From Acidobacteriota bacterium (GTDB lineage: Bacteria > Acidobacteriota > Holophagae > Holophagales > Holophagaceae), in NCBI GenBank assembly GCA_021812805.1, contig JAKAMQ010000008.1:1-36100 (forward strand): 36,100 bases of DNA, given 5' to 3'. Below, piece by piece: positions 9,563-32,461 of the stretch. The position numbers and the translations under genes are program-made. The notes beneath the pieces are model-generated. The model made no database searches, was not told the origin of the DNA, and saw only the letters and a list, made by a program, of their open reading frames with translations. Every line of letters starts with the position of its first letter. The stretch's first letter is position 1.

Positions 9563-10738
9563 TCACCGCACCAGGCCGGCCGCGCCCGCCAGCGCGCCCA
9601 GGCCCAGCACGAAGGCGGGATGCCACCGGAAGCGCAGCAGCAGGATCAGGGCGAGGAAGGCCAGCGCAATTCCGGAAAAGCCATGGATGGTGCCCTTGGC
9701 CAGAAGCAGGGCCGACCCGAAGATGAGGCCCACCACCACCGGCGAGAGACCTGCCAGCAGGTCCTTGGCCCGGCCCAGATCCTTCAGGCGGGTGTAGAAG
9801 TGGGACAACAGGCTCATCAGAGCCATGGCCGGGAGGAAGAGGGCCGCCGTGGCGACCAAGGCGCCCCCCACGCCCTGGACCCGGTAGCCCGCGAAGGTGG
9901 CCAGCACGGCGATAGGGCCCGGGGTGAGGTTGCTGATGGCCACGCCGTCCAGGAACTGCTGGGGGCTGAGCCAATGCAGGCGCTCGACCAGGCTCTGATG
10001 CAGGATGGGCACCAGCACGAAGCCCCCGCCGAAGAACACGAAGCCCACCTTCAGGAAGGTCCAGCCCAGGCCCAGCAGCGAGGACGCGGCCCCGGCGGCC
10101 GCAGGGGCGGGAAGCGCCAGCATCGCCGGAGCGGCGGGCGGGGAGGTCTCCGGCGCCTTCGAAGGGGATGGTCCTTTGGCCAGCCGGTCCCTGCCTAGCC
10201 AGAGGCCCACGGCGCCACCCGCCGCGAGGATGCTGAGGCTGTTCCATTTCAGGAGGGAGAGACCTAGCGCCAGGGCCAGCAAGAGGATCGCGGGAAGGGT
10301 GCGCACCGCCTTGCGGCCCATGGACCAGGCGGCGCTCAGGATGAGGGCGATGACCACCGGCCCGAGCCCGTGCAGGGCCGTCTGGAGCGCGGGGATTGAG
10401 TGGAAACTGAAGTAGAGCCAGGAAAGCAGGATCACCAGGATCACGGAGGGCGCGAGAAACGCCGCCGCGCAGGCCAGCCCGCCCAGGAAGCCGAAGAGCC
10501 GGTTTCCCACGAAGAGCGAGGCGTTCACGGCGAAGGGGCCGAGGATCTGCCCCAGGGCGACGCCATGGAGGAATTCCTCGAGATCCAGCAGTTTCCGCTT
10601 CCGGACCAGATCGTGCTCCATGAGCGCCACCACCGCCATGCCGCCCCCGAAGCCGATGGCCCCCAGGCGGAGAAACAGCCACACCAGCTCCCGGAGGCGG
10701 GGAGCCGGCCTGGACGCGGGATCGGGAGGGATCAGCAT
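9563..10738 (-). CDS. chrA: ChrA-family chromate/anion transporter
   Basis: 391 residues, a two-domain (long) CHR family inner-membrane protein. Each half repeats the CHR hallmark: FLRLGAIGFGGGMAVVALME with GVALGQILGPFAVNASLFVG in the first half, and FLKVGFVFFGGGFVLVPILHQ with GVAISNLTPGPIAVLATFAGY in the second. A Pro/Ala-rich linker (about residues 185-215) joins them, and 10-12 hydrophobic helices are evident. Known members export chromate in exchange or by proton-motive force; other anions are possible. The start has GGAG just upstream, 15 nt after the TolC-like stop. It is unusual to find it within a CDF-ferredoxin-TolC run, which suggests a role in anion or metal stress rather than dedicated chromate resistance (no chrB/chrF seen). 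Confidence 0.93.
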   Translation of the reverse strand: MLIPPDPASRPAPRLRELVWLFLRLGAIGFGGGMAVVALMEHDLVRKRKLLDLEEFLHGVALGQILGPFAVNASLFVGNRLFGFLGGLACAAAFLAPSVILVILLSWLYFSFHSIPALQTALHGLGPVVIALILSAAWSMGRKAVRTLPAILLLALALGLSLLKWNSLSILAAGGAVGLWLGRDRLAKGPSPSKAPETSPPAAPAMLALPAPAAAGAASSLLGLGWTFLKVGFVFFGGGFVLVPILHQSLVERLHWLSPQQFLDGVAISNLTPGPIAVLATFAGYRVQGVGGALVATAALFLPAMALMSLLSHFYTRLKDLGRAKDLLAGLSPVVVGLIFGSALLLAKGTIHGFSGIALAFLALILLLRFRWHPAFVLGLGALAGAAGLVR

Positions 10739-13979: not shown

Positions 13980-14600
13980 TCAAGCTTTGGATGGGGCGGC
14001 GGCCGAGCAGGGGATGCAGAGCCTTCGATCGCCCTGGGTGCGGCCATAGGCCGCCACGGTCACCTCGCCGCAGTGCTCGCAAAGGAAGATGTCGAAGGTT
14101 TCTCCGCTGCCGACGATGACCGGTCCCGATTCCACCTCGCCCACCTTCAGGAGCTGCCCCACGGGCGCGCTCATAACCCTTTGGATCAGGGGCTCCACAA
14201 CCTCCGAGGGGACCTGAGAGGCAGGTACGCCCTGCCTCCGATAGTCCAGAAAGAAGGGGCTCTGTCGCGAACCCATCTGCGCCTCCGCCCGGGGAGCCAC
14301 GCGCACCCGGCGCCCTGTGGCGCGGTCCACCAGGGTCAGGCCGAACTTGCCATAGCCCAGCTTCCGGATGTTGCCCTTGCCGAAGGTGCAGCCGGTGATC
14401 ATCTGCACGCCATCGGCGAAGCAGTGCGAGCAGTGGCCGTCCCCCAGCTCCAGGATGGCCTCGAGCTGGCCATCTGTGGATCGGGCGACACCCAGGGCAT
14501 CCAGCGCCGCAGCGCCGGCCCGCAGGCCCAGGGGCATGGCGGGGCACTTGTGGCCATGGAGAAGCTGTCCCGCGGAGAGGAAGGCGTGGGGATCGGTCAT
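13980..14600 (-). CDS. FmdE-family protein (formylmethanofuran dehydrogenase subunit E-like domain)
   Basis: 206 residues from ATG 14600 with GGGAG upstream. The FmdE fold is visible: GHKCPAMPLGLRAGAAALDALG at the N-terminus (Cys19), then DGHCSHCFADGVQMITGCTFGKGN (Cys57, 60, 71), and a C-terminal zinc-ribbon-like FLCEHCGEVTV...RRLCIPC. In methanogens FmdE sits with molybdenum or tungsten formylmethanofuran dehydrogenase; in bacteria related proteins occur near molybdenum enzymes and metal transporters, with unproved roles in metal or molybdopterin handling. No other formylmethanofuran gene is present here. It is the second gene of the packed operon, 76 nt after the regulator. Role: likely metal binding, otherwise unknown. 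Confidence 0.88.
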   Translation of the reverse strand: MTDPHAFLSAGQLLHGHKCPAMPLGLRAGAAALDALGVARSTDGQLEAILELGDGHCSHCFADGVQMITGCTFGKGNIRKLGYGKFGLTLVDRATGRRVRVAPRAEAQMGSRQSPFFLDYRRQGVPASQVPSEVVEPLIQRVMSAPVGQLLKVGEVESGPVIVGSGETFDIFLCEHCGEVTVAAYGRTQGDRRLCIPCSAAAPSKA

Positions 14601-14666
14601 GGGACTCCCGGCGCGGCGTGGTTTCAGCCGCCATGCACAAGATCCGCCCACCCCAGGCTGCGGGCC

Positions 14667-14680
14667 TTGTCTTGGATCAA
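14667..14680. promoter_or_regulatory. Weak FNR/Crp-like operator upstream of fmdE
   Basis: The plus-strand sequence TTGTCTTGGATCAA (minus: TTGATCCAAGACAA) resembles the FNR/Dnr box TTGAT-N4-ATCAA, with one perfect half-site and two mismatches in the other. It lies between the Crp-like gene stop and fmdE, about 70 nt before the fmdE start, where a promoter operator would be expected. The match is weak and could be chance. Confidence 0.25.
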
Positions 14681-15609
14681 GTCCGGTCGGAATCCATCCC
14701 CGAAGCCAGGTGCCGGAGTGCGTCCAGCCGAATCACCTGGTACTTGCCCGGGCCCAGGCGGTGCAGAACGCCCCTGCGCACCAGCAGGGCCAGAGCCCGG
14801 GACAAGGAAGCGGGAGTCAAGCCGATGGCATCCGCGAAGGCCTGGGAGGTTCCAGGGATGGCGACCATGGGGTAGGGGCCGCCGGGCACGAGAGGTTCCA
14901 GGGCCGAAGCCACCCGGTTCACAGCGCTGCGGATGGAGAGATGTTCGATCGTGTCGAAGGCCTTGCGGAGCTGCCGCGCCAGGAGCGCCAGGAGCGCCAT
15001 GCTGATGCGGGGATCCTTCATGGCGGCTTCGAGGTCCTGGCGATGGACGATCCGCACGCGGGAGGCCTCCAGGGCCTCCACACTGGCGGGATAGCCCACT
15101 CCATCGAAGAAGGGCGCGAACCCCAGCACATCGCCGGGTCCGAACCGGATGAGGGTGGCGTTACGGCCATCCTCGAAGGTCCGGATGGCCCGGAGCAGCC
15201 CGTGTTCCACCTGCACGAGCCGATCTGCGGGATCTCCTTCGTGCCAGAGGAATCCGCCCTTGCGCAGGGGCACCGTCCTCGCATGGGCTTCGAGCAGGCT
15301 TATGAACGCCTGAGGGCCGCTCATCGAAACAGGAGAAAGGGCAGATGCGGGACGTGCGGGAGCGCGGACCTCGATGGCGAATTGTCCGGTTCGGGTCAAA
15401 CGGATGGCGCGGGCGCGTCCGGGTTCCAGCGCCACCAGACCTTTGGCCTGGAGGCGCCCGAGGTACTCGCGTGCGGAGGCAGCCGTGGTCCAGCCCAAAG
15501 CGGCGGCAAGCTCGCGCAGTGTTGGGGGCAGTCTGTCGCCGGGCCAACCTCCCAGGACATGAAGCACCCGGGATTCAGTGGCGGTGAGAGCAGATCCAGA
15601 CTGGGCCAT
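14677..15609 (-). CDS. Transcription regulator: LexA-type winged helix fused to Crp/Fnr protein
   Basis: 310 residues from ATG 15609; the track extension to 16050 crosses the Rieske gene and is spurious. Residues about 8-72 (LTATESRVLHVL...LPPTLRELAAALGW...LGRLQAKGLVALEPGRARAIRL) match the LexA N-terminal winged-helix pattern. Residues about 98-215 form a cyclic-nucleotide-binding fold (LWHEGDPADRLVQVEHGLLRAIRTFEDGRNATLIRFGPGDVLGF), followed by a long dimer helix and a Crp-type helix-turn-helix (about 225-300, TSQAFADAIGLTPASLSRALALLVRRGVL). FNR-type N-terminal cysteines are absent, so the effector is not an obvious Fe-S cluster. Neither ATG 15609 nor the internal ATG 15324 (which would give a plain Crp protein) has a good ribosome site; the conserved LexA-like domain favours 15609. 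It heads the minus-strand operon and is divergent from the Rieske/cytochrome operon. Confidence 0.88.
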   Translation of the reverse strand: MAQSGSALTATESRVLHVLGGWPGDRLPPTLRELAAALGWTTAASAREYLGRLQAKGLVALEPGRARAIRLTRTGQFAIEVRAPARPASALSPVSMSGPQAFISLLEAHARTVPLRKGGFLWHEGDPADRLVQVEHGLLRAIRTFEDGRNATLIRFGPGDVLGFAPFFDGVGYPASVEALEASRVRIVHRQDLEAAMKDPRISMALLALLARQLRKAFDTIEHLSIRSAVNRVASALEPLVPGGPYPMVAIPGTSQAFADAIGLTPASLSRALALLVRRGVLHRLGPGKYQVIRLDALRHLASGMDSDRT

Positions 15610-15744: not shown

Positions 15745-16170
15745 ATGATCAGGGACACGCACCAGACATTCTCGCCGGAGCGCCGGAAGGCGCTCCGGCA
15801 CGGAATCCTGTTCCTGTGCGGCGCGTCCTTCGCCGGGGCCTTGGTGGCCATGCTGCGGGAGGTCCGCACCCGGCAGGAACCTGAAACGGTCCACCTCCCC
15901 CCGGATCTGGCGGAGGGGCTTTCCATCGAAGGCCCGGTGATCGTCTTCCGCGAGGCCTCCGGTCAGCTCCTCGCCTTCTCCAGCCGCTGCACCCACCTGG
16001 GCTGTCGTCTGGACCGCATCCAGGGCGGAGAGGCAGTCTGCCCTTGCCACGGCTCACGTTTTCATCCAGACGGATCTGTGGCCCAAGGGCCGGCCTCGCG
16101 CCCGCTCCTCCCCGTGAAACTTGAACCGGACGGATCCTCGGGGGGATGGATCGCCCGTGTCCAGTCCTAG
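15745..16170 (+). CDS. Rieske [2Fe-2S] protein of a cytochrome bc-type complex
   Basis: 141 residues from ATG 15745 (MIRDTHQTFSPERRKALRHG); an in-frame ATG at 15718 would add nine residues, and the site AGG six bases before 15745 is slightly better. A single membrane anchor (GILFLCGASFAGALVAML, about residues 21-38) is followed by a soluble Rieske fold: CTHLGC and CPCHGS supply the two Cys and two His ligands of the [2Fe-2S] cluster. The protein is short, near the small menaquinol Rieske type. Its last 14 nt overlap the cytochrome start, so the two are made together. It should accept electrons from quinol at the Qo site of the fused cytochrome b and pass them to a c-type haem. Confidence 0.92.
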   Translation: MIRDTHQTFSPERRKALRHGILFLCGASFAGALVAMLREVRTRQEPETVHLPPDLAEGLSIEGPVIVFREASGQLLAFSSRCTHLGCRLDRIQGGEAVCPCHGSRFHPDGSVAQGPASRPLLPVKLEPDGSSGGWIARVQS

Positions 16171-18880
16171 ACCCACACCCCTCGCAACCCCCTGGGGCAC
16201 TCTGGGGGACTTGGCCACGGCATCCTTCGTCCTGGCGGCCCTCACGGGCGCGGTCCTGGCCATTCCCTACGACCCCGCGAACGCCTACGGATCCATCGCC
16301 ACCCTGCTTCTGGCCAACGCACCCGGCAGCTTCTTCCGCAACCTGCACTACTGGTCAGCCCAGTTCTGTCTGGTGTTGTCGGTCCTGCACCTCGCGGATC
16401 ACCTGTGGCTGAGCACCGAAGGCAGGGTTCGACGCGGCGCATGGCTTCGACTCACCTTGTCGCTGCCGATCCTGGTCTACCTCATGCTGAGCGGATTCCT
16501 CCTCCGGGGTGATCTGGAAGGCCAGCAGGCCCTGCGCATCGTCTCCCAGATCTTGGGTCAGGTCCCAGTCCTGGGTGCGCCGCTGGTCACCCTCCTGTTT
16601 GGCCGTGGGGGGCGCCTGGACGTGGTGTACGTGCAGCATGCGGCCACGGCCACGATCCTGGTGTGGCTCTTCATCCAGGAGCACACCCGCCGGCTCTGGC
16701 CCCGCCCGGCGGCCTTCCTGGCCGCAGGCCTGGCCGCAACGCTTCTCTCCCTGGGGTTTTCGCCGGGCCTCCACGACGGCCTGGATCCCATCGTCAAAGG
16801 CCCTTGGTACTTCCTGGGTCTGCAGGAGATCCTCCACTGGACCCGCTGGCCAGTCCTGGTGCCCTTCACCATCGTCCTCCTGGTGGCCATTCTCTACGCC
16901 ATTCCTCGATTGAAATCCCCCTGGGCCCGGCGGGCCAAGTGGACCCTGCTGGGGCTGGGCCTGGTGTACGGGGGGCTTTGCGGCGTGGGGGGCGTGTTAC
17001 GTGGAGAATCCTGGAGCTGGGGCCCCGCCTGGCCCCGGGGGGGCGGGAACCTCCAGGTGGGCTGGGTCTTCGCGCGGACGCCTGCTGCGCCAGTGCCTCT
17101 GCCTCTGGTGCAGGGGCACCCCGAAGGCTGCCTCGTCTGCCACGTCGGCATGACCGGCCTCGGGAACGCGCATCGACCCGAAGCCGTGGGCTGTGCATCC
17201 TGCCACGGCGGGAATCCCCTCACCCTGCAGAAGAGCAGAGCCCACGCGGGCATGATCCGGATCCCGGGCAACCTGGCCGACGCCGCCCGAAGTTGCGGCA
17301 CCTCGGCCTGCCACGCCGAGATCATCCCCCGGGTGGATCGATCCGTGATGACCACCATGGCGGGCGTGGTGGCCGTGGACCGCCATGCTTTCGGGGAGGC
17401 CCCCGCCCCTGGGGGCGGAATCCCCAAGGTGGCCGCCCTGGGGCACAGCCCGGCGGACACCCACCTGCGGCAACTCTGCGCCGGCTGCCACCTGGGCACT
17501 CCCAAGGAGCACCTGGGCACGGACACCGGAGACACCCCCGGCGGCGGATGTCTGGCCTGCCATCTGGTGTACAGTCCGGCGGCACAGAAGGCCCTCGCAA
17601 CGGATCAGCGCCAGCGGAGCACGGGGCGCGCAGAGGCCCCCAAGGTGCATCCGGCGCTCTCCCTGGACCTGGACGATGGGAAGTGTTTCTTCTGCCACAG
17701 CCGCTCTGGGCGGATCTCCCTCGCCTATGAGGGCTGGATGGAGCTGCAGGATCCCCCGGACAGTCTGCGCGGCACTGCCGACCAGATCAGCGGCCGGTAC
17801 CGCACCCTGGCGGATGACCGCGTGCTCGAGCGGATCACGCCCGACATCCACCAGGAGAAGGGCATGGCCTGCGTGGATTGCCACACGGCCACGGAGGTCA
17901 TGGGGGACGGTACGACCCACGCCTTCAAGCGGGAGCAGGTGCGCCTCGCCTGCCAGGACTGCCACAGCCGGCCCGGACAGCCGCTGCCCTCCCTGCCCCT
18001 GAAGGCCCTGGATCCCGAATCCCGAAGGCTCCTGGTCCTGCGGGCCTGGCCGGGTGGCACCCCCCAGCGCTTCATCCGAACGGAGCGCGGAGAGGCCCTA
18101 GTGAACGGCACTTTCGACGAGACGAGCGGGCGGCCCATGTTGATCCGCAAGAAGACGGGACAGCGCCTGCCCCTCTTGTCCCAGATCAGCGACTGCTCGG
18201 CCCCCGCTCATGCCCGCCTCGCCTGCGGCGCCTGCCATACCGCCTGGACCCCCAGTTGCGCCTCTTGCCACACCTCCTTCGACCGCACTGCAGAATCCTA
18301 TGACTGGATCGCCCGCAAGGATGTAGCCGGTGCCTGGGTGGAGACCTCCCAGGCCTTCGAGGCCCGTCCGCCCACTCTCGGCATCCAGGCGGGCGAACCT
18401 GGCGGCCAATCCACGGTCCAGACCTTCGCGCCCGGCATGGTGATGACCCTGGATCGCCCCGGTGTGCCGACCACCTTCCAGCGCCGCTACGCGCGGAGCG
18501 AGCCCCACACCACCACTCGGAGATCGCGCCCCTGCGCCTCCTGCCACAACGATTCCCAGGCCCTGGGCTATGGCCGGGGGCAGCTCCGCTTCGCGGCCAC
18601 GGGCCGGGACGGGCGCTGGACCTTCATCCCTGCCTTGCCTCCGGGCCCCGATGGGTTGCCCGCCGATGCCTGGATCCCCTTCCTCGGCACCCGGACAGAA
18701 CCCGTGTCCACGCGGCTGGACGTGCGGCCCTTCAGCGTGGATGAGCAACGCCGCATCCTCACCGTCGGCGCCTGCCTCACCTGCCATGATGGCGCGTCCC
18801 ACGTCATGCGGAATTCCCTTCACGACTTCAAGGGGCTCCTGGCGCGCCGCAGCCCACGTTGTCGCCTACCGGTCTGGTGA
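16157..18880 (+). CDS. Cytochrome b fused to a 12-haem cytochrome c
   Basis: 907 residues from GTG 16157, preferred over the track TTG at 16121 because GGATGGA sits six bases before it; residue numbers use this start. The first 290 residues are a cytochrome b membrane domain: haem-ligand histidine pairs H64/H78 (LHYWSAQFCLVLSVLH) and H161/H176 (HAATATILVWLFIQEH), then KGPWYFLGLQEILHW, which corresponds to the PEWY quinol-site region of cytochrome b. About eight hydrophobic helices are present. From about residue 325 to the end is a periplasmic domain with twelve c-type haem motifs: CLVCH, CASCH, CGTSACH (CX4CH), CAGCH, CLACH, CFFCH, CVDCH, CQDCH, CGACH, CASCH, CASCH, CLTCH. The architecture implies quinol oxidation coupled to a long haem wire. 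A bidirectional hairpin follows the stop. Confidence 0.92.
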   Translation: MSSPRPTPLATPWGTLGDLATASFVLAALTGAVLAIPYDPANAYGSIATLLLANAPGSFFRNLHYWSAQFCLVLSVLHLADHLWLSTEGRVRRGAWLRLTLSLPILVYLMLSGFLLRGDLEGQQALRIVSQILGQVPVLGAPLVTLLFGRGGRLDVVYVQHAATATILVWLFIQEHTRRLWPRPAAFLAAGLAATLLSLGFSPGLHDGLDPIVKGPWYFLGLQEILHWTRWPVLVPFTIVLLVAILYAIPRLKSPWARRAKWTLLGLGLVYGGLCGVGGVLRGESWSWGPAWPRGGGNLQVGWVFARTPAAPVPLPLVQGHPEGCLVCHVGMTGLGNAHRPEAVGCASCHGGNPLTLQKSRAHAGMIRIPGNLADAARSCGTSACHAEIIPRVDRSVMTTMAGVVAVDRHAFGEAPAPGGGIPKVAALGHSPADTHLRQLCAGCHLGTPKEHLGTDTGDTPGGGCLACHLVYSPAAQKALATDQRQRSTGRAEAPKVHPALSLDLDDGKCFFCHSRSGRISLAYEGWMELQDPPDSLRGTADQISGRYRTLADDRVLERITPDIHQEKGMACVDCHTATEVMGDGTTHAFKREQVRLACQDCHSRPGQPLPSLPLKALDPESRRLLVLRAWPGGTPQRFIRTERGEALVNGTFDETSGRPMLIRKKTGQRLPLLSQISDCSAPAHARLACGACHTAWTPSCASCHTSFDRTAESYDWIARKDVAGAWVETSQAFEARPPTLGIQAGEPGGQSTVQTFAPGMVMTLDRPGVPTTFQRRYARSEPHTTTRRSRPCASCHNDSQALGYGRGQLRFAATGRDGRWTFIPALPPGPDGLPADAWIPFLGTRTEPVSTRLDVRPFSVDEQRRILTVGACLTCHDGASHVMRNSLHDFKGLLARRSPRCRLPVW

Positions 18881-18899: not shown

Positions 18900-18925
18900 G
18901 CGGGGCCCGGTCACCCGGGCCCCGC
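18900..18925. terminator. Bidirectional hairpin terminator between convergent genes
   Basis: GCGGGGCCCGG-TCAC-CCGGGCCCCGC is a perfect 11-bp stem with a 4-nt loop, 20 nt after the cytochrome stop and 24 nt beyond the stop of the opposing small-protein gene. There is no clear T-run on either side, but the very GC-rich stem and the convergent position fit a shared terminator. Confidence 0.7.
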
Positions 18926-18948: not shown

Positions 18949-19239
18949 CTAGCACCCCGCAGCGGCCAGGCTCTTGTCGAAGGTCACTTCCTCGCCATCC
19001 TTCAGCTCGTTGGCCTTGGGGGAGGAAAGGGTCACGGTGACACCTTCCACCGCCGTGATCTTGCCGTTGATCTTGTGGTTGATCTTCACCTGGATGCCCT
19101 TCTTCACCCAGGAGGCGAGCGCGCCTTCGGTCTTCACCACCACGGTCCGATCCTTGACGGACACGACCTTTCCCTTGGCGGGGGCGGCGAACGCGGCAGT
19201 GGCCACGAGGACGGCAAGCAGGGCAGAACGCTTGAACAT
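18949..19239 (-). CDS. Small secreted protein, paralogue A
   Basis: 96 residues of unknown function. A signal peptide (MFKRSALLAVLVATAAFAAPA) is followed by a short, probably all-beta domain: KGKVVSVKDRTVVVKTEGALASWVKKGIQVKINHKINGKITAVEGVTVTLSSPKANELKDGEEVTFDKSL, ending AAAGC. It is clearly paralogous to the protein at 25785-26123 (shared GKVVSV, W, VKIN, G-I-AV, TL-SPKA-ELK-GE-VTFD-SL and a C-terminal Gly-Cys). The ribosome site is AAAAGGAG. It is the last gene of cassette 1, 38 nt after porin 1, so probably co-expressed with the Mo reductase operon. Family unrecognised; the fold suggestion is from strand alternation only. Confidence 0.87.
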   Translation of the reverse strand: MFKRSALLAVLVATAAFAAPAKGKVVSVKDRTVVVKTEGALASWVKKGIQVKINHKINGKITAVEGVTVTLSSPKANELKDGEEVTFDKSLAAAGC

Positions 19240-19277: not shown

Positions 19278-20603
19278 CTAGAAGACGATCTGAAGCATCA
19301 TCCGATAGGTGTTGTAGGAGGTTACCTTCGGCGTGGTTCCGACTACGTCGCCAACCAGGTTCGTGGGCTGGTCGAAGTCGGTCTTCAGGTACTCCGCGGT
19401 GAGTCGCACGTTCTGGCCGTGGATGTAGTAGTTGATCCCGCCACCGGTCTGCTTAATGCGCTGGTTCGTGGCATTGAGCAGGGACGGGAAACGCCAGTTT
19501 TCCGCCAGAACGTAGGGCTGGACCAGGCCTTCCTGGCCCACGGTGACGGGCAGGAGGTAGGCGCCCTTCACATAGTTGCCTTCCTTCTGACCGTTGAGAC
19601 CGCCGATGTTGGCCAGCAGGTCGCCGGGGTTCTTGTTGGTGAGGTAGGCATCCTGGAAGTCGTTTTTTAGATACTGGCCCGTGAGGGTGTAGGTGCCCGC
19701 GTTGGCTGTGGGGTATTCGAACAGGAAATCCCCGGCTATGGCTTTGTAGTCCACCGTATCGCCGTTGAGGATGTTGCCGGTGGCATCCACGTTCTTGTAG
19801 ACCGCCGAGGCCTGGTAGGCATAGCCGCCGCCGACGGTGAGGATCGTCGCCTGCCCCAGATAGCTCCCCGCGTAACCAGAACCCGGCTCGGGATCCAGGA
19901 AGGCGTAAGCCACACGGCCCACGTACTCGAAGGTGTTCTTAGGCTGCATGGAGGACTTGAAGGTCGCTCCCGTGAACGGGTTGGCGGCCGTGGTGTAGCC
20001 CTCTCTCCCCTGGAAGGCGCCGAGCCAGTAGTCGAGCTTGTGGTCGAAGAATCCGCCCCAGGCCACCGCGCCGGTGTCACGACTGAACTTGGCGGCGGAG
20101 TTGCCATAGGCGGTGTAGACGAACATGGAGCGGTCCTGGGACAGCGGCGCGAAGCAGTCATCCAAGTTGGCCCGGGTAAGGGGAAGCTTGGTGAGGCCGA
20201 TCTTGAAGTTCAGCGCGTCGCTCAGTCCAGCCGTGATGTAAGCATCGATGATCCGCACATCCCGATCATCCGCATTCGTGTCCTGCCCCGAAACGCCATA
20301 GCCGAGGGGACCCTGCTTGGAGGTACCCGTGGCGCCGCAAGACTGCCACTTGAAACCCCACACGTCATTGAATTTGCCAGTAAGGGTCAACCGGAGACGC
20401 TGGAAATGGATGTCCGTACGGGAGCCGCGATGGTCCATGCCGTTGCCCAGGTCGGTCTCCTCGGCGAACACCTGGCCCTTGAGGTTGATCTTGATGTTCT
20501 TGACCCATTCGGGGACGTCCTGGGCCCGTGCGATGGTGGCGAAAGCGAACGCCGTCAGGCCCAGCGTCAAAGGGCGCCGGAGGGTGTGTCGGGGGGAAGC
20601 CAT
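19278..20603 (-). CDS. Outer membrane porin, phosphate-selective OprO/OprP-like
   Basis: 441 residues from ATG 20603, preceded by AAGGAG; the track start at 20669 is not supported. A signal peptide (LTLGLTAFAFATIARAQ) is followed by a 16-strand-type barrel pattern: INLKGQVFAEETDLGNG, RTDIHFQRLRLTLTGKFNDVWGFKWQ, DVRIIDAYITAGLSDALNFKIGLTKLPLTRANL, repeated aromatic strands and a C-terminal Phe (YRMMLQIVF) typical of Bam substrates. This matches the OprO/P porin family, which often passes anions. It lies 143 nt after the phsC-like gene and 38 nt before the small secreted protein. A perfect inverted repeat and a run of nine C (coding strand) lie in its leader. Role: probably passage of an anionic respiratory substrate, by inference from context. 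Confidence 0.9.
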   Translation of the reverse strand: MASPRHTLRRPLTLGLTAFAFATIARAQDVPEWVKNIKINLKGQVFAEETDLGNGMDHRGSRTDIHFQRLRLTLTGKFNDVWGFKWQSCGATGTSKQGPLGYGVSGQDTNADDRDVRIIDAYITAGLSDALNFKIGLTKLPLTRANLDDCFAPLSQDRSMFVYTAYGNSAAKFSRDTGAVAWGGFFDHKLDYWLGAFQGREGYTTAANPFTGATFKSSMQPKNTFEYVGRVAYAFLDPEPGSGYAGSYLGQATILTVGGGYAYQASAVYKNVDATGNILNGDTVDYKAIAGDFLFEYPTANAGTYTLTGQYLKNDFQDAYLTNKNPGDLLANIGGLNGQKEGNYVKGAYLLPVTVGQEGLVQPYVLAENWRFPSLLNATNQRIKQTGGGINYYIHGQNVRLTAEYLKTDFDQPTNLVGDVVGTTPKVTSYNTYRMMLQIVF

Positions 20604-20622
20604 GGATCGCTCCTTGAGAAAC

Positions 20623-20631
20623 GGGGGGGGG
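20623..20631. repeat. Homopolymer run (nine G/C) in porin leader
   Basis: Nine consecutive G on the plus strand (C on the coding strand) lie 20 nt before the porin 1 start, between the inverted repeat and the ribosome site. Such tracts can slip during replication. A 7-nt run lies at the same place before porin 2 (28033-28039). Confidence 0.5.
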
Positions 20632-20637
20632 ATGAGT

Positions 20638-20663
20638 GTTAGACGATGGCTTAATCGTCTAAC
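20638..20663. promoter_or_regulatory. Perfect 10-bp inverted repeat upstream of porin 1
   Basis: GTTAGACGAT-GGCTTA-ATCGTCTAAC is a perfect dyad with a 6-nt spacer, 35 nt before the porin 1 start and 84 nt after the end of the cytochrome b gene. There is no following T-run, so an operator for a dimeric regulator is as likely as a terminator of the upstream operon. Confidence 0.45.
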
Positions 20664-20712
20664 GAGCATGCTTCAATCTGAGGTCTTCACCGGCCCGAAG
20701 CCAAGTGAATGG

Positions 20713-20746: not shown

Positions 20747-21559
20747 CTACGTGGAGGAAGACTCGTTTGCCTTGGTGGGATCCGGTTGGACGGCCTGGTC
20801 GTGCTTCACTTCCCAGGCCTGTTCCTTGAGCTTCATCTCCCTCCACCACTTGAAGTGATGGGAGTAGGCGAACACCTCGTCCACCACGCCGGAGAACATG
20901 GAGAAGAAGGCAGGCTTTTCTTCCGGGAACACCGCGCCCATGTAGACGTGGACGATCAGCCCTGAGAACACGCCGCCCACGGCGCAGAAGTGGATGAGGG
21001 CCGCCCAGCCCACCACGGCCGTTCCGAACAGGTGGAACGCCATGATGAGGCCCGTGGCCATGATGACCGGCAGGGCCGCGTACACCATCAGGGCGAACAG
21101 CTTCTGGCCTGCGTTGTAGACACCCTGGGGAGGGAGCGATTCGCTGGAGCGCCCAAGGATGCCCAGCACCCGGATGCGCAGCCAGGCCATGTCGTCGGCA
21201 TCCAGGGCGATCTCCCGCTTCAGCACTTCCTGGGAGAGGTAGGTCCGCCAGCCGAACAGGCCATAGACCAGGAAGACCGCGATCCAGGTGAGGCCGAGGC
21301 CCAGGTGGATGCGCATCAGGTTGGCCCGTGACCCGGCCAGCTCTGTGAGGGTCTGGATGAAGGCCACGGGCACCACCCGGAGACGATCCGCGGAAACCAG
21401 CGCGACCCCGGTGCTCAGCTCCCAGATCCACACCAGGGCATTGAACCAGTGCAGCAGGATGATGGCGATGTGGTGCTTCTTGAGGTGCCGCTGCCGCATG
21501 GCCTCGACCTGCTCGCCGCTGAGTGGAATCGGATGTTCGGGAATCGGACTAGTCTTCAT
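20747..21559 (-). CDS. Cytochrome b membrane subunit, PhsC/FdnI-like (quinol oxidising)
   Basis: 270 residues from ATG 21559, chosen because AGAGGA lies five to six bases upstream; the ATG at 21574 is an alternative. It belongs to the formate dehydrogenase gamma / thiosulfate reductase PhsC type di-haem cytochrome b. Four to five helices are visible; candidate haem-ligand histidines are H37 (LLHWFNALVW), H85 (RIHLGLGLTW), H190 and H204 (ALIHFCAVGGVFSGLIVH), the last pair 14 apart as in FdnI. It anchors the Mo and Fe-S subunits and exchanges electrons with the quinone pool. It overlaps the Fe-S subunit gene by 11 nt. A cytochrome b rather than an NrfD protein makes this operon PhsABC-like rather than PsrABC-like. 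Confidence 0.9.
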   Translation of the reverse strand: MKTSPIPEHPIPLSGEQVEAMRQRHLKKHHIAIILLHWFNALVWIWELSTGVALVSADRLRVVPVAFIQTLTELAGSRANLMRIHLGLGLTWIAVFLVYGLFGWRTYLSQEVLKREIALDADDMAWLRIRVLGILGRSSESLPPQGVYNAGQKLFALMVYAALPVIMATGLIMAFHLFGTAVVGWAALIHFCAVGGVFSGLIVHVYMGAVFPEEKPAFFSMFSGVVDEVFAYSHHFKWWREMKLKEQAWEVKHDQAVQPDPTKANESSST

Positions 21560-22280
21560 AGTCTTCCTCTCCATGCCAGAGCTGATGGAAGAAGGCGACG
21601 GCCTGGCCCGCGAAGGTCAGCCCCACGGCCCCCACGACGACCGGTCTTGCCACCTTCTCCCAGAGGCTTCCGGAAACCGGCATGTGGGGCGGTCGGGGAG
21701 GGAAGGCGTCCATGACGAGGGCCACTTGCTGGGGCTTGCCCTGGTAGTAGACATGGGGCCCCACGTGAATGGCCTGGGTCTCCCGGCGCTGGGCACCCAG
21801 GTCGTACACCAGCTTGAAGACCGGGCTTTCGCGATCCTCCAGGTTCCCAAAGACCTTGGCGTGGGTGGGACAGGTCGCCACGCAGGCCGGCTCCTGACCC
21901 CGTGCGACGCGCGGGGCGCAGAAATCGCACTTGTCGGCCTTCTTGAGGACGGGATGGATGTAGCGGGCGTCGTAGGGACAGGCCGCCACACAGTAGCCGC
22001 AGCCGATGCACACCTCGCGGTTCACCCGGACGGCGCCGTTGGCATCGCGGAAGGTGGCGCCGGAGGGGCAGGCGGGCAGACAGGGCGCCTCGTCGCACTG
22101 GGCGCACTGGGCCACCAGGATGCCCGCCGCCAAATCGGGGAAGGTGCCTTGCACAGGCGTGTGCTGGATGTGCGTGCGGGCATAGCCCGCCGGCACGTCC
22201 CATTCGGCGTTGCAGGCGGCGGTGCAGGCCTGACAGCCCACGCACCTCCGAAGATCCGTGACCATGGCATGGCGGGTCAT
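21549..22280 (-). CDS. Four-[4Fe-4S] electron transfer subunit with C-terminal membrane helix, PhsB/FdnH-like
   Basis: 243 residues. Four cysteine clusters carry electrons between the Mo subunit and the cytochrome b: CVGCQACTAAC, CAQCDEAPCLPACP, CIGCGYCVAACP and CDFCAPRVARGQEPACVATCP. A C-terminal hydrophobic helix (VARPVVVGAVGLTFAGQAVAFF) resembles the anchor of FdnH, so the protein probably sits on the periplasmic face held by this helix; it has no Tat signal of its own and would travel with the Mo subunit. The start is preceded by a strong AGGAGGAA site, 10 nt after the Mo subunit stop. The DMSO reductase-type beta-subunit family is certain; substrate system follows the Mo subunit. Confidence 0.93.
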   Translation of the reverse strand: MTRHAMVTDLRRCVGCQACTAACNAEWDVPAGYARTHIQHTPVQGTFPDLAAGILVAQCAQCDEAPCLPACPSGATFRDANGAVRVNREVCIGCGYCVAACPYDARYIHPVLKKADKCDFCAPRVARGQEPACVATCPTHAKVFGNLEDRESPVFKLVYDLGAQRRETQAIHVGPHVYYQGKPQQVALVMDAFPPRPPHMPVSGSLWEKVARPVVVGAVGLTFAGQAVAFFHQLWHGEEDYED

Positions 22281-22290
22281 GGGTTCCTCC

Positions 22291-24513
22291 TCAGCGTTCG
22301 GATGCGATGGCCACAGGCTTCACGAAATTCACGCGCATGCCAGTTCCCCCCATGAGGGGATCCACTTTCACGCGAGTCATCAGATCGGTGTCCGAAGCAC
22401 CCATGCCCCCCGCGCGGCTGAGCAGCCGCGACCGCTGGCCGAACCCGTGGACAAGGTAGACGCAGTCGGAGCGGATGCCTTCCGTCGCCTTCAGGCGCAC
22501 CGGCAGGGTCTGGACCCCGTCCTGGTTCTGGACCACCACCCGCTGGTGGTCCTGCAGGCCCAGGCGCGCAGCGGCCGAGCTGTTGATCCACAGCTCGTTC
22601 TCGGGCATCAGCCCGTGCAGCATCTCGTTGTTCTCGCTCCGGGCGAAGGAATGCACCGGGGCGCGTCCGTAGATGAGCCTGAAATGGCCGGCGGGCGGCT
22701 CCTCCACGGGCGTGTAGCGCGGCAGGGGATCGAACCCCAATTCCTTCAGGCGGGTGGAATGGAGTTCGATCTTCCCGCTATCGGTCTCGAAGAGCGTATC
22801 GCCCGAGGCGATCCGGTCCTCAAGATAGGGCCTTCCGGGGAAGGGCATCGCGCCCCGCACCTTCAACGCCTCCGGGTTGATCTCCATGGGCTCGACCAGC
22901 GTGGCGTAATGTTCTTCCGGGGTCTTCCAAGGGAAATACGCCTCGAGGCCCAGCCGCCTGGCCATCTCTTGAGCGATCCACCAGCCCGGCTTCGACTCGT
23001 ACTTCGGTTCGACCGCCGGGAATCTCACCGACACGAAGGGGACTTTCGCGCTCTCGGCCACGGCGGGCGGATCGTACCGTTCCAGGTAGGTGGCCTCGGG
23101 CAGCACGAGATCCGCCCACAGCACATGATCGTTGGGCATGATGTCGACGACCACCATCAGGTCGAGGCCCTTGATGGCCTGTTTGGTCCGCTCGGGCTGG
23201 GGGATGCTCTGAACCACATTTTGGCCGTAGACGATCCAGGCCTTGATGGGGTACGGCTTCCCGGTGAGCGTGGCCTCCACCAGGCCGTTGGTGACCCCCA
23301 GTTCCTCGGAGGCGAGGGGGAACGTGGTGCCCGCACCATCCGCCCGGCCCTTCGCCGATTCCGGGAAATCCGGCAGGTCGAAGCTGCCCTTGGGCACCGA
23401 GGTGGGAAGCGTGATCCCGCCTTTACGGCCCCAACTCCCCAGCAGGGCCGTGAGGATGGCCATGGCGCGGGCCCGCTGGGTATCGTCTCCGTACCAAGTG
23501 GCGTGGCGTCCGGGATGCAGCGCCACCGCTGGTTTCGCGGCACCCATGGCGCGGGCTGTTGCCCGGATGCGCTCGGCGGGAATCTCGGTGATCTGGGCCG
23601 CCCACTCCGGCGTGAAGGGGCGCACATGCTCAGCCAGCTTATCGAATCCATTGGCGTACTTCCGGATGTAGTCCTGGTCGTAGAGGTTCTCCGCGATGAG
23701 GACGTGCATCCAGGCCAGCAACAGGGCGATGTCCGTGCCTGGCTTGATGGGAAGCCACCAGTCGGCCTTCTCGGCCGCAGTGCTGAAGCGGGGATCCACC
23801 ACCACCAGCTTCGCCCCCTTGGCAAGCCCTTCGGCGAAGGACGCGACCTGGCTGGTGAAGACGTTCTCGCCGATGTGGGTGCCGATGAGCACCATCAGCT
23901 TCGTCTCGTCCAGATCCACCGGCTCGGGAGACCCGAGTCCCCGCCCGAAGGTCAGGGCGTAGCCCACCTCCCGGGGACCCCGGCACTGGGCGAAGGCGGG
24001 CTCGGCACTGTTGGGTGTGCCGTAGGCCTTCATCAGGGTGTGGAAGAAGCCCGCGCTGACGCCATGGGGAAAGAAGGCCACGGATTCAGGCCCGTGGGTC
24101 TGCTTGAGGGCCTTCAGCTTGCTCGCCAGGAAGTCCAGGGCTTCCTCCCAGGTTACGCGCTTGAAGCGCCCTTCGCCCCGCTCGCCCACGCGCATCAGGG
24201 GATACTTCAGGCGGTCCCGGTCGTAGAGCAGAAAGGCGCCCGCGTTGCCTCGGGCGCAGATGCGGCCCTTCGTCAGCGGGTGGTCCGGATTGCCCTCCAC
24301 CCGCAGCACCCTGCCATCGGCCACGCTGGCCAGGATCCCGCAGCGCCAGAAACACATCTCGCAGACCGAAGCGACCTTCTTGACGCGCTGTTCCCCCCGC
24401 CATCCCGGGGGATTCCCTGGAATCGTGATGGGCCGGCCTGCACCGAGGAGGCTGACGGAGCCCACGGCCCCCCAGGTTCCAATGAATGACCGACGACTGA
24501 TCGCTTTCGCCAT
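22291..24513 (-). CDS. Molybdopterin oxidoreductase, PhsA/PsrA-like catalytic subunit (thiosulfate/polysulfide type)
   Basis: 740 residues from ATG 24513 (AAGGAAGG upstream; the track start adds nine residues). A Tat signal (SRRSFIGTWGAVGSVSLLGAG) sends the folded enzyme to the periplasm. The N-terminal [4Fe-4S] motif is CX2CX3CX27C (Cys51, 54, 58, 86: CEMCFWRC...GRICARG). The segment YGTPNSAEPAFAQC puts Cys177 where PsrA/PhsA enzymes have the Mo-coordinating cysteine. Later blocks (GTHIGENVFTSQ, VVVDPRFSTAAEKADWWLPIKPGTDIALL, LPEATYLERYD) are typical of bis-MGD enzymes of the DMSO reductase family, and the length equals PhsA/PsrA. With PhsB- and PhsC-like partners the best guess is thiosulfate or polysulfide reduction; other sulfur or metalloid oxyanions are possible. 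Confidence 0.9.
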   Translation of the reverse strand: MAKAISRRSFIGTWGAVGSVSLLGAGRPITIPGNPPGWRGEQRVKKVASVCEMCFWRCGILASVADGRVLRVEGNPDHPLTKGRICARGNAGAFLLYDRDRLKYPLMRVGERGEGRFKRVTWEEALDFLASKLKALKQTHGPESVAFFPHGVSAGFFHTLMKAYGTPNSAEPAFAQCRGPREVGYALTFGRGLGSPEPVDLDETKLMVLIGTHIGENVFTSQVASFAEGLAKGAKLVVVDPRFSTAAEKADWWLPIKPGTDIALLLAWMHVLIAENLYDQDYIRKYANGFDKLAEHVRPFTPEWAAQITEIPAERIRATARAMGAAKPAVALHPGRHATWYGDDTQRARAMAILTALLGSWGRKGGITLPTSVPKGSFDLPDFPESAKGRADGAGTTFPLASEELGVTNGLVEATLTGKPYPIKAWIVYGQNVVQSIPQPERTKQAIKGLDLMVVVDIMPNDHVLWADLVLPEATYLERYDPPAVAESAKVPFVSVRFPAVEPKYESKPGWWIAQEMARRLGLEAYFPWKTPEEHYATLVEPMEINPEALKVRGAMPFPGRPYLEDRIASGDTLFETDSGKIELHSTRLKELGFDPLPRYTPVEEPPAGHFRLIYGRAPVHSFARSENNEMLHGLMPENELWINSSAAARLGLQDHQRVVVQNQDGVQTLPVRLKATEGIRSDCVYLVHGFGQRSRLLSRAGGMGASDTDLMTRVKVDPLMGGTGMRVNFVKPVAIASER

Positions 24514-24607
24514 GGGATCCTTCCTTGGCCGCTCCAGCACCCGATATGCGTGCCTCCCATTGATTTATCTACCGGATGGTATTTAAAACAATTGAATGCT
24601 TCGCATG

Positions 24608-24634
24608 GCGCTCATGACGAACCGTCATGAGCGC
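24608..24634. promoter_or_regulatory. Perfect 12-bp palindrome between phsA-like and LysR genes
   Basis: GCGCTCATGACG-AAC-CGTCATGAGCGC, a perfect dyad with a 3-nt centre, lies 31 nt before the LysR start and 94 nt before the divergent phsA-like start. LysR proteins usually bind such dyads in the divergent region and autoregulate. The remaining 152-nt region holds an AT-rich stretch (24559-24597) with a poor sigma-70-like pair (TTGATT, 16 nt, TTTAAA) pointing to the LysR gene. Confidence 0.5.
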
Positions 24635-24665
24635 GGTAGAGTGGTGCCCAGGCAGGGAGCCCCTG

Positions 24666-25682
24666 ATGGAGTCGGTCTACCTCAAGACCCTGGTGGAAGT
24701 CGTGAAGGCCGGCAGCCTTTCCCGGGCGGCAGAGGTGCTCTGCGTGACTCAGCCGGCTGTCTCCCGCCGGATCAAGTTCCTGGAAGACCAGTACGGCTGC
24801 GCGCTTTTGGATCGCTCGGGCAGCCAGATCCGGCCCACCGAAGCTGGCCGCATGGTGTACCAGAAGGCCGGAGCCCTGCTCGATATCGAAGCCGAACTGG
24901 AAGCCGGGCTCCACCAGCTGGAAGGGAAGACCCGCCTGTCTTTCAGCTGCACCCCCGCCTTCGGCTCGGCTCACATGCCCGGTGTCCTCCGTGATTTCAT
25001 GCTCACGTGCGTGGACACCGCGGATCTCAAATTCCTCTTCCTCTCGCCCAACGAAACTTTGCGCGGCCTGGGGGAGGGGATCTTCGATGCGGGCGTGGTC
25101 GAGGGCGCAACCCTGTTCGATCCTGCCTCCTTCTCCACCCATCCCCTTCCCGAGGCGGAAACGGTCTTCATGGCCAGTCCTGAACTCGCCCTACCCTCGA
25201 CGGGGGCCCTCATCGACTCGCTGCTGGAACTGCCCCTCTACACCCGACGGGAGGGTTGCTGTTCTCGCATGCTCATGGAGCGCGGGCTCAAGGGAATCGG
25301 CCTCAGCCTCAGTTCCTTCCGCAAGGTGATCATCCTCGACGATCTCCACCTTCTGATCCAGGCCGTCCTGGCCGGAGAAGGCATCTCGTTCCTGCCCACG
25401 GACCTGGTCCAGGAGCACATCGCCGCGGGCCGGATCAACCTGCACCGCATTCCTGGATTCGATCACTCACGATCCCGCACCCTGGTCGTCAATGACCGCC
25501 TGGGATCGGAGGAGGCTCTCGGTCATTTCGTGAACGTGATCCTTGCCCATTTCGGTCTTCCTTCCACCAAGACTTCCGCAGCGCTTTCCCCGAAACTGAA
25601 CCAGGCCCCAGCTTCCAGAACATCCTTGATCTCCCCAGGCGCAGGCTGCCTGCCCCCGCTGTGTTCTTGCCCGAGGGCCTGA
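24666..25682 (+). CDS. LysR-family transcriptional regulator
   Basis: 338 residues from ATG 24666, with GGGAG five bases upstream; the earlier track start at 24627 has no such site. The winged helix-turn-helix is at residues 1-60 (YLKTLVEVVKAGSLSRAAEVLCVTQPAVSRRIKFLEDQYGCALLDR), followed by a linker helix and a periplasmic-binding-protein-like effector domain (about 92-290). The gene is divergent from the Mo reductase operon of cassette 1, with a perfect palindrome between them, so it probably controls that operon in response to the substrate or a sulfur metabolite. The last 30-35 residues (after LAHFGLPSTK) are a low-complexity tail not seen in typical 295-310-residue LysR proteins, and the following DNA looks like a broken coding fragment, so the 3' end may be rearranged. 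Confidence 0.92.
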   Translation: MESVYLKTLVEVVKAGSLSRAAEVLCVTQPAVSRRIKFLEDQYGCALLDRSGSQIRPTEAGRMVYQKAGALLDIEAELEAGLHQLEGKTRLSFSCTPAFGSAHMPGVLRDFMLTCVDTADLKFLFLSPNETLRGLGEGIFDAGVVEGATLFDPASFSTHPLPEAETVFMASPELALPSTGALIDSLLELPLYTRREGCCSRMLMERGLKGIGLSLSSFRKVIILDDLHLLIQAVLAGEGISFLPTDLVQEHIAAGRINLHRIPGFDHSRSRTLVVNDRLGSEEALGHFVNVILAHFGLPSTKTSAALSPKLNQAPASRTSLISPGAGCLPPLCSCPRA

Positions 25683-28097: not shown

Positions 28098-31000
28098 TCA
28101 GTCACCGGTGTGCACGCTCTCGCGATCCGAGGCTCCGCTGGCCACCTTAACCAGCTTGATGCGGCTCCCACCGAAAGCCGAATCCCCGGCAATGGGATCC
28201 GTCAGGCATACATCCTTGAGATAGCTGTCCACGGCCATGGCCGGGTTGGGCACCAGGCCCTTGGAGCGGGCGGGTTCGCCCTTCACCAACTGGCCATTGA
28301 TGGTCATGTCTTTGGAGCCATAGGCCCAGTGGCCGAAACTCCAAGAGACGGCTACGGCGCCAGGACGAATGCCCTGGATTACCTTGACCTTGCCCTGGAC
28401 GGTCACTGTCTCTCCGGAGGCCAGGTTGAAGGTGCCGTTGAAGCCGGGGGCTTCCAGGCGGACCGTATCATAATCCTCGAGGCCCATCCGTTTGGCGTCG
28501 CGGGCGTTCAAGTAGACGAAGTTTTCCGGCATGAGGGCCATTTGTCCGGCGTAATTGCTGATCGTGCGGGACTGGCCGCCGAAGATGTCCTTGTAGGTGA
28601 AGAGGGCCAGATCGTACTCGGAGCCGAAGACCACCGGCTTGCCGTCGAAGCTGGTCAGTTCCTGGAAGACGGGCACGCCCGAGAGAAACTTGCCTGTGAC
28701 GGAGTGCCTGGCCGACCCGATAGGCTCTACGTATAGGTTCATCTGCTTGCCCCAGGTGTGGCCCAGAAAGGCCCCGTCGTGGGCCTTGTCGGCCTTCTCG
28801 AAGCGCCCACCATGGTTCAGGACTGTGACCACCTTTGACCACTCCCCCCCCACGGCGGCCCGCCACTTCGCAGGTTCGAACACGCCTCGGGGAAGATGGC
28901 GTCGTGCCCTGAGGAAGAGATCCTGGTCTTCCCGGCTGGCTTCCTTGACAGCGTCGCCCTCTTTGTCGCCCGAGGCCACATTGGCCACCATTTTCAGGTA
29001 GAACTGCTCGGGGCGCTTGAGGTCCCATCCAGAACCCATGCCATCCTTGCCATAACCAGGCGCTTTCAACTTCTGGGCCACGGCAATCATGACGGCATCC
29101 ATGCTGATGGGCATGTCCTCGCCCTGGACCGATACGACCTCGGGAATGGGTGTAACTACGGGCTGGCGGATCTTTGTGGTCTTGGTGAGAGTCACCGGGC
29201 TAGTGCCCATGGGATTGCCCCAGCGCTCCAGGTAGGCGATGTCGGGGAAGACGTAATCGGCGAACATGCTGGTCTCGCCCAGGACGATGTCCGTGCAGAT
29301 GAACAGTGGTAGGCGCTCCGTATCCTGGAGCATCTTGATCTGGAGGTGCCCCGCCGGGCTGGACAAGACCGGCGTACCGTAGTGGAGCCAGAGGATCTTG
29401 ATGGGGTAGGGATACCCCGCGTGGGCAGCGGGGATGATCTCCTGGTAGACATCATCTGTGAAAGGGAACCAGGGGCGCTTGGCAGGGTACCCATCGCGCT
29501 TGAAGATCGTGCTGCTCTCGTAGGAACCGCTGGACTCCCGGGTCAGCTTTACCCCGAATGGCTTCAGGGCTCCGGGGTGCATCTTGCCGATGTCGAAGGG
29601 CTTGCCAGGCTTCCCGCCCATGCTGTCCCAGGCGCCGCCGCCAGGGGCGAACCCGCCTACGTGGTCAATATTACCGATGAGCAGGTTCAGGGCGATGATC
29701 GCCTGAGCCGCATAGTAACCGTAGGTCAACTTGATGGGGCCACGGTAGAAATCAATAGCAGCCTTCTTCCCGTGGGCCGTGAATTCCCGCGCCAGCGATT
29801 CAATGGTGGCCTGGTCCACGCCACTCTTCTCGACGTAGTGGGTCATGCCGTGTTCGAAGACAGAATCGCGGAGGGCGCGGAAGCCAGTCTTGATCTTCAT
29901 GCCTCGGAGGGTGGTATCCACATCAAGATCTCCGACGACGGACTTCTTCTCGTCCTCGGGATCCACGGCTGTGGGACGTCCCCCGACCAGGGCCACGAAC
30001 TGGGTTTCGTTGCCCACGCCCAGTTCCTTGGCGCGGATCAACTTGCCCGTTTCTACATTGACCAGCCAGCAGGCATTGCTCCAGGTCTTCTCATCCCCAG
30101 CCTTGGCGGCGGCTTTGTTGGCATTGCGCAGGAAGGCCTCATCGTACCGCTTGTTCTCGATGATCCAGTTGAGCATGCCGAAGGCCAGGGCAAGGTCTCC
30201 GCCGGGCGCAACGGGCACCCACCAGCCCTTGGCCGCGGTCTTGGAAAGCCGCGGATCTACGACCGCCACCTTGAGCTTGCCATCCACAATGGCCTGGGAT
30301 ACCTGCGGTCCCATGGGGGTAGGACCGAAATTGGCCTCGGTGTAACCAGTGCCCCAGAAGATCACGAACTCGGACTTGGTGTAGTCCGGCTTCATGTGGT
30401 TGGTGCCTTTGTTCCAGCTTCCCACGCCATCCTTCACAGCCCACTGCGCGGTGGCCCAGAGGAAGGCCACATGGTGGGCCTGTTCGCAGATGGTGGTGTG
30501 GGCGTACCAGTTGACGGATCCGATGCCGTTGAAGGTGAACCGCTTCGCGAATACTTCGCGGTCGGGGCCGATGCGCCCGCCCTGGAAAACGAACTGGTTG
30601 TTCTTGGGCCCGAGGTCCGGATGGTCGGGATCAATCAGCACATCCAGATGATCCTTGTGCTTCGACTTGAAATCCTCCACGGTCATCGTCCCGGCGCGGA
30701 CCTCGCTCACATCCTCGCCTAGCGCCTTGGCCAGGGAGGCATCTTTCAGGACGAACACCTCTTTGAATCCAGGCACATGCCGGGTTTCGCCGATGTCGGC
30801 GAAGAGCTGGCCGCCCTCGGTGATCTCTTGGATGGCCTGCTCGAAGGGGATGGCCTTCCACTGGCGGGACCCCCGCGGTCCATTGCGCTTGAGCACCATG
30901 CGGATGCGATAGGGGTCGTAGATGCTCTGGACGCCCGCTTGGCCCTTGGGGCAGAGATGCCCGTCCACCTTGGCCACGGCCTGGGGACTGAGATCGTAAC

Positions 31001-32452: not shown

Positions 32453-32461
32453 CGCGTCCTC

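Follow-up and report, generated by a model that had tools for sequence, protein, structure and literature searches.

Contig JAKAMQ010000008.1 of an Acidobacteriota bacterium of the family Holophagaceae (GenBank assembly GCA_021812805.1) encodes, within the 36,100 nucleotides of forward strand analysed here (positions 1 to 36,100; the window), a Rieske protein and, from an overlapping gene, a 907-residue protein that joins a cytochrome b6, a subunit IV and a dodecahaem cytochrome c. Judged from its sequence, the latter is best described as the ExtP, ExtQ and ExtM proteins of the ext complex in a single chain. The content and coordinates of the two genes had been given correctly in a preliminary description of this DNA, as open reading frame (ORF), motif and Pfam evidence confirmed, and its proposal of a Rieske/cytochrome b quinol oxidase with a covalently attached 12-haem c subunit is supported by the sequence. 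The Rieske-linked 12-haem form had also been regarded as unrecognised, a view that did not hold, as the ext complex has been described in Geobacter (PMC2825233, PMC5877670) and the haem domain of the window matches ExtM. That close homologues might already bear the name of a complex, as the same description had foreseen, was thus partly the case: the ext-type Rieske/cytochrome b/12-haem complex is already known, with separate genes, and the novelty lies in the fusion to a single chain and in the genes that accompany it.

In Geobacter, the ext cluster (extHIJKLMNOPQS, GSU2930-2940) encodes the 12-haem cytochrome ExtM, the Rieske protein ExtO, the cytochrome b ExtP and the membrane protein ExtQ from separate genes (PMC5877670). 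The cluster was found in all Geobacter examined and was proposed as a conserved, general bc complex of this group (Butler 2010; PMC2825233). Since 2010 it has stood as a candidate for the missing quinol oxidase, and no paper describing its purification was found. The comparison with Geobacter was made with NCBIfam models and published papers. It is highly probable that the Rieske protein and the fusion constitute a quinol-oxidising Rieske/cytochrome b complex with a haem wire. The whole reading, an ext-type, menaquinol-oxidising Q-cycle complex whose tethered haem wire serves the periplasmic reduction of selenium, tellurium or sulfur oxyanions, has about an even chance of being correct.

One fused gene and its relatives

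The GTG start of the fusion gene (16157) falls inside the last 14 nucleotides of the Rieske gene and is kept in genomes G034, G031 and G300. A TTG at 16121 is not conserved; it was the start of the mechanical ORF call of 919 residues, to which the residue numbers of the NCBIfam matches below refer. The Rieske gene lies directly 5' of the b part wherever a locus has the b-c pair, with the exception of G392, where it lies about 4.5-5 kb upstream.

A protein search of the window's family returned G034, full-length and 61% identical, and G031, a fragment at a contig end. A second search, with an alignment of four fusions as query, covered the orders of G300 (162 genomes) and of G392 (19 genomes) and the class of the window (93 genomes). 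Both were aimed at Acidobacteriota. Beyond these, one single-sequence scan of genome contigs yielded a single relative, and a plasmid collection contained only distant cytochrome b matches; no claim is made that the fusion is confined to Acidobacteriota. The alignment-based search, of the kind suggested with the preliminary description, brought the full-length fusions to eight (G000, G034, G300, G392, G479, G486, G469 and G476). They represent seven family-level groups of Acidobacteriota, the window's own included. The seven other fusions have the same uninterrupted frame and are 43-61% identical to the window protein over its whole length. Within the genus of the window, the fusion occurs, full or partial, in 3 of 47 genomes, some of them incomplete, and thus looks accessory.

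In a maximum-likelihood tree of the haem domain, the eight fusions form one clade (100/98). Its sister clade consists of six rows of family f34, whose b6-subunit IV and 12-haem-type proteins are encoded by separate adjacent genes, and unfused ExtM branches outside both. Since the eight fusions are monophyletic, a single fusion event is the simplest reading. The simplest history suggested by these sequences is that b6 and subunit IV were joined first, followed by one fusion to the haem protein; family f34 could also have arisen by later fission of a fused gene. A frameshift or a misassembly that joined two genes around residue 300 had been named beforehand as the finding that would undo the fusion. 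The separate b and c parts of family f34 would suit such an artefact, but the ORF runs uninterrupted and conserved across the junction in seven other genomes, which form one clade with the window protein, so that this explanation is ruled out, its probability being negligible.

Cofactor sites, topology and the haem domain

The Rieske protein contains the ligand boxes CTHLGC and CPCHGSRF, which agree with the CxHxGC and CxCHGS boxes of bc complexes, and its ligand residues are invariant among 11 aligned homologues. Its N-terminus has a Tat-like anchor (twin-arginine translocation; SPERRKALRHG), and an alternative start is possible at an in-frame ATG upstream (15718). The two bL/bH histidine pairs expected in helices B and D of a cytochrome b are H64/H78 and H161/H176 of the fusion, and all four residues are invariant in the alignment of the eight fusions. 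A spacing of 15 between the helix D histidines is of the cytochrome b6 type, and this is the spacing found in the fusion. The b6f-type subgroup is further marked by an extra haem c_n/c_i bound by a cysteine of helix A; residues 1-60 of the window fusion contain no cysteine. In the subunit IV-like part, KGPWY replaces the PEWY motif of the Qo site, a variant in which G-P-W is invariant across the eight fusions and the glutamate is absent. Variation of this motif tracks the quinone type (PMC9162462).

Hydropathy and an AlphaFold2 model, built on a 34-row alignment from which misaligned cytochrome b loci were excluded, place seven transmembrane helices (A-G) at the same positions; as positive charges lie in the inner loops, the positive-inside rule assigns the haem domain to the periplasm. 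The model has a mean predicted local distance difference test (pLDDT) score of 75 and shows the haem domain separate from the membrane part, with a linker of low confidence at residues 283-314. Foldseek matched it over about 320 columns to full-length cytochrome b of bc1 complexes, a result not fully independent of the model, the alignment of which contained cytochrome b homologues.

The haem domain matches Pfam cytochrome c7/c3 domains and has haem motifs at residues 325, 346, 380, 441, 465, 510, 572, 599, 690, 701, 793 and 873, of which eleven are CXXCH and one, at residue 380, is CX4CH (CGTSACH). The haem-binding cysteines and histidines of all 12 are invariant in the eight fusions. At haem 3, the fused and the split clade have CX4CH, G476 has CX3CH and ExtM has CXXCH. 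The ExtM model matched residues 332-898 (E 2.4e-66, profile positions 17-585 of 599), scoring 224 bits where the equivalog cut-off is 800, and the ExtP model residues 27-179 (E 2e-18) with 67 bits against a cut-off of 290. All 12 haem positions line up with unfused ExtM, identity to unfused acidobacterial ExtM being 27-30%. The unfused ExtQ of G167 passes the cut-off of the ExtQ model, has a corresponding AWF motif and an FFRGPDW end, and corresponds to window residues ~183-283; because of this, and because the ExtP and ExtM models match the remaining parts, the three names could be assigned to the single chain. The NCBIfam model named ExtO (Rieske), NF040968, has 416 positions and matches haem-motif stretches in the manner of the ExtN model, and the Rieske proteins of the window and of G167 do not match it; it may have been built on ExtN-like sequences.

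The 12-haem domain might instead be the terminal selenite or tellurite reductase itself, with an open haem site, the neighbouring molybdenum enzyme (see below) acting on another substrate. A profile search against the PDB revealed, for the haem domain, only marginal similarity to NrfA and octahaem nitrite reductases (E 0.002-0.05), which together with the unusual spacing at haem 3 in both the fused and split clades would favour this idea. The similarity extends over about 70 residues around haem motifs, and no catalytic motif was identified; this reading is considered improbable.

Proposed electron flow and the molybdenum enzyme

For the quinol type, the direction and route of electrons, the order of the haems, the electron partner and the terminal acceptor, we infer the following scheme. 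The Rieske protein and the fusion would form a b6f-like complex of the ext type, with predicted quinol oxidase activity, Q cycle and dimeric state. Menaquinol would be oxidised where the cytochrome b domain and the Rieske head together make a Qo site. Of its two electrons, one would pass through haems bL and bH to reduce quinone at the inner side, with conservation of energy. The other would travel by way of the Rieske cluster and enter, at its first haem, the attached domain, a putative periplasmic wire standing in for cytochrome f or c1. The ExtI porin would admit selenium, tellurium or sulfur oxyanions to the periplasm, where the wire may either deliver electrons to the adjacent Tat-exported molybdenum reductase of the PsrA/PhsA type or reduce the oxyanion directly. 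Extracellular or periplasmic delivery had been expected; the periplasmic part is retained and the extracellular one is not favoured, the fusion being the only CXXCH-containing ORF picked in the window and its neighbours being ExtI, ExtJ and a periplasmic molybdenum reductase.

The link to chalcogen oxyanions draws on four lines of evidence. ExtI and ExtJ are present in the locus, both passing their curated cut-offs. An extI mutant of Geobacter sulfurreducens connected the ext cluster with selenite and tellurite (PMC5877670). The molybdenum enzyme belongs to the PsrA/PhsA lineage, which includes the selenite reductase SrrA (PMC7331816), and in Campylobacter the menaquinol-cytochrome c reductase Qcr feeds periplasmic molybdenum reductases (PMC6195509). 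The nearest structure to the enzyme of the window is 2vpw, annotated as a thiosulfate reductase. The window enzyme carries a Tat signal (SRRSFIG), which agrees with export, and a candidate cysteine ligand of molybdenum (AQCRGP), assigned by motif only.

PsrA/PhsA-like enzymes (E <= 1e-60) mostly number one or two per genome in this set. In 7 of the 14 genomes, one was found at a distance of 10 kb or less from the b-c locus, where chance would give about 0.08 such genomes. The excess is large, though the nominal probability is too small because the loci are related. A closer type of molybdenum enzyme (~70% identity) adjoins ext-type genes wherever the surroundings were read (G034, G300, G481, G424, G167 and G558). 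This repeated company offers a direct connection, open to testing, of a Q-cycle complex with the reduction of chalcogen oxyanions in this phylum.

Several observations weigh against this assignment. The molybdenum enzyme has its own b561 quinol subunit and therefore does not need the Rieske complex. The selenite/tellurite chemistry was shown for the extI mutant of Geobacter only, and not for ExtM-ExtQ (PMC5877670). Three of the genomes with the fusion (G392, G479 and G476) have no PsrA/PhsA-like gene on the same contig, and of 18 genomes only 5 have an ExtI above the cut-off. The ExtP and ExtM parts score far under their equivalog cut-offs, so their function could have drifted.

The complex might also be a general menaquinol oxidase whose electrons reach Fe(III) or other acceptors outside the cell by way of periplasmic cytochromes and outer-membrane conduits, with the molybdenum reductase as a mere neighbour, a possibility held to be rather unlikely. 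The proposal of a general Geobacter bc complex (PMC2825233) and the LysR regulator nearby, from a family associated with multihaem cytochromes, speak for it, as does the higher abundance of the Geobacter ext cytochromes with Fe(III); loss of extI, however, left Fe(III) citrate reduction unaffected (PMC5877670). The lack of a second CXXCH ORF among those picked in the window and the accessory appearance of the fusion within its genus also argue against a general role. Less probable still is an oxidative flow, in which the PsrA/PhsA-like enzyme would reduce the quinone pool with electrons from a sulfur compound, and a high-potential acceptor would receive electrons from the fused complex. A bc complex requires an acceptor above the quinol potential, and reductases and oxidases alike, ArrA and ArxA among them, occur in the wider clade (PMC7331816), but the company of ExtI and ExtJ and the known extI phenotype indicate reduction.

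The oxyanion-reduction scheme may be carried further, to an energy-conserving menaquinol oxidase in a single chain that passes electrons from its tethered haems directly to a partner molybdenum reductase, a fused module spread through several Acidobacteriota families; this is put forward only tentatively and is likelier to fail than to hold. If it were true, respiration of selenium, tellurium and sulfur oxyanions, usually assigned to non-conserving quinol dehydrogenases, would gain a Q cycle. Being one chain with a single Rieske partner, the fused form may be a simpler target for expression and structure determination, and once solved would show how the Rieske head docks to a multihaem wire.

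Neighbouring genes and known systems

The features of the locus are listed in the table below.

Table. Features of the fusion locus in the window
Feature	Coordinates	Strand	Evidence or remark
Crp/FNR-like regulator, divergent from Rieske gene	14677..15567	-	Pfam; adjoins Rieske gene in G031 too
Rieske [2Fe-2S] protein, ExtO-like, 141 residues	15745..16170	+	Pfam Rieske E 4e-14
Putative ExtP-ExtQ-ExtM fusion (cytochrome b6-subunit IV-dodecahaem cytochrome c), 907 residues	16157..18880	+	GTG start, stop at 18880
Cytochrome b6-like part, residues 1-182	16157..16702	+	Pfam Cytochrome_B E 3.5e-12
Subunit IV-like part, residues 183-283, helices E-G, ExtQ counterpart	16703..17005	+	Alignment across fusions
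Linker, residues 284-320	17006..17116	+	Low AlphaFold2 confidence, pLDDT 32-47 (blocks 281-320)
Periplasmic 12-haem domain, residues 321-907, ExtM homologue	17117..18877	+	ExtM model match
Strong hairpin, 11 GC pairs, between convergent genes, just 3' of fusion stop	18900..18925		Terminator-like on - strand scan
ExtJ	18949..19239	-	NCBIfam NF040942, 58.3 bits (cut-off 52.5)
ExtI outer-membrane porin	19278..20669	-	NCBIfam NF040900, 289 bits (cut-off 150)
Cytochrome b561-type quinol subunit (PhsC/FdnI-like)	20747..21574	-	Pfam PF01292 E 8e-18
4Fe-4S subunit (PhsB/NrfC-like)	21549..22280	-	Pfam and NCBIfam matches
PsrA/PhsA/SrrA-type molybdenum reductase, likely ATG start 24513	22291..24540	-	2vpw E 2e-230; PhsA model E 6e-156, below cut-off
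LysR regulator, 'multiheme cytochrome-associated' subfamily	24627..25682	+	NCBIfam NF041036, 335 bits (cut-off 210)

CbcL, to which the fusion had been compared initially, proved not to be the closest relative. CbcL and CbcBA of Geobacter likewise combine an inner-membrane cytochrome b with multihaem c in quinol oxidation, but are not known to include a Rieske protein. Membership in the CbcL type was rejected on account of the Rieske partner and the b6-type cytochrome encoded in the window. A further difference is the number of haem motifs, of which GSU0274 has 9 (PMC2825233, Table 5).

The window shares with the Geobacter ext bc complex the Rieske protein, the b-type cytochrome, the small membrane protein ExtQ, a 12-haem cytochrome of a related family and the presence of ExtI and ExtJ in the locus. 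It differs in that ExtP, ExtQ and ExtM are one polypeptide and in its PsrA/PhsA-type molybdenum enzyme; the selenocytochrome ExtKL, ExtN and ExtS were not recognised in the window, where the fusion is the only picked ORF with CXXCH. The unfused operons of two other Acidobacteriota, G167 and G424, have the order ExtJ-PhsABC-ExtM-ExtN-Rieske-ExtP-ExtQ and thus the same components, with a molybdenum enzyme 71-73% identical to that of the window in the aligned part. Unlike in the window, all their subunits are separate, ExtN is present, a further reading frame with four CXXCH motifs follows and haem 3 of ExtM is CXXCH. In ext operons of Acidobacteriota (L055, L056 and other loci), a PhsABC-type molybdenum enzyme lies between ExtJ and ExtM, the place occupied in Geobacter by the selenocysteine cytochrome ExtKL.

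Rieske/cytochrome b complexes with multihaem c are also encoded in Kuenenia (Kuste3096-3097, Kustd1480-1485 and Kuste4569-4574), where the cytochrome b of Kuste3096-3097 is fused with a c domain (PMC12954380); this domain has 2 haems, unlike that of the window, and the hexa- and octahaem forms are separate subunits accompanied by an NAD(P) oxidoreductase module. The Nap locus of Caldithrix abyssi resembles the window in combining Rieske/cytochrome b with a periplasmic molybdenum reductase and multihaem acceptors (PMC5317091), but no fusion was reported there and the reductase is one for nitrate, not of the chalcogen type. A Rieske-multihaem form has been put forward, in work cited in PMC5317091, as an early stage in the evolution of bc complexes.

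The Crp/FNR-like regulator upstream of the Rieske gene has an extra N-terminal winged helix of the LexA/MarR type. Elsewhere in the window, a second, TtrABC-like molybdenum system (Tat signal, NrfD subunit and Fe-S subunit) occurs with a sigma-54 response regulator and a histidine kinase (28098-33391 and 33705-36100, both on the - strand). Upstream of the fusion locus, an FmdE-family protein (13980-14651, -) and a protein of the chromate transporter family (9563-10738, -) are encoded.

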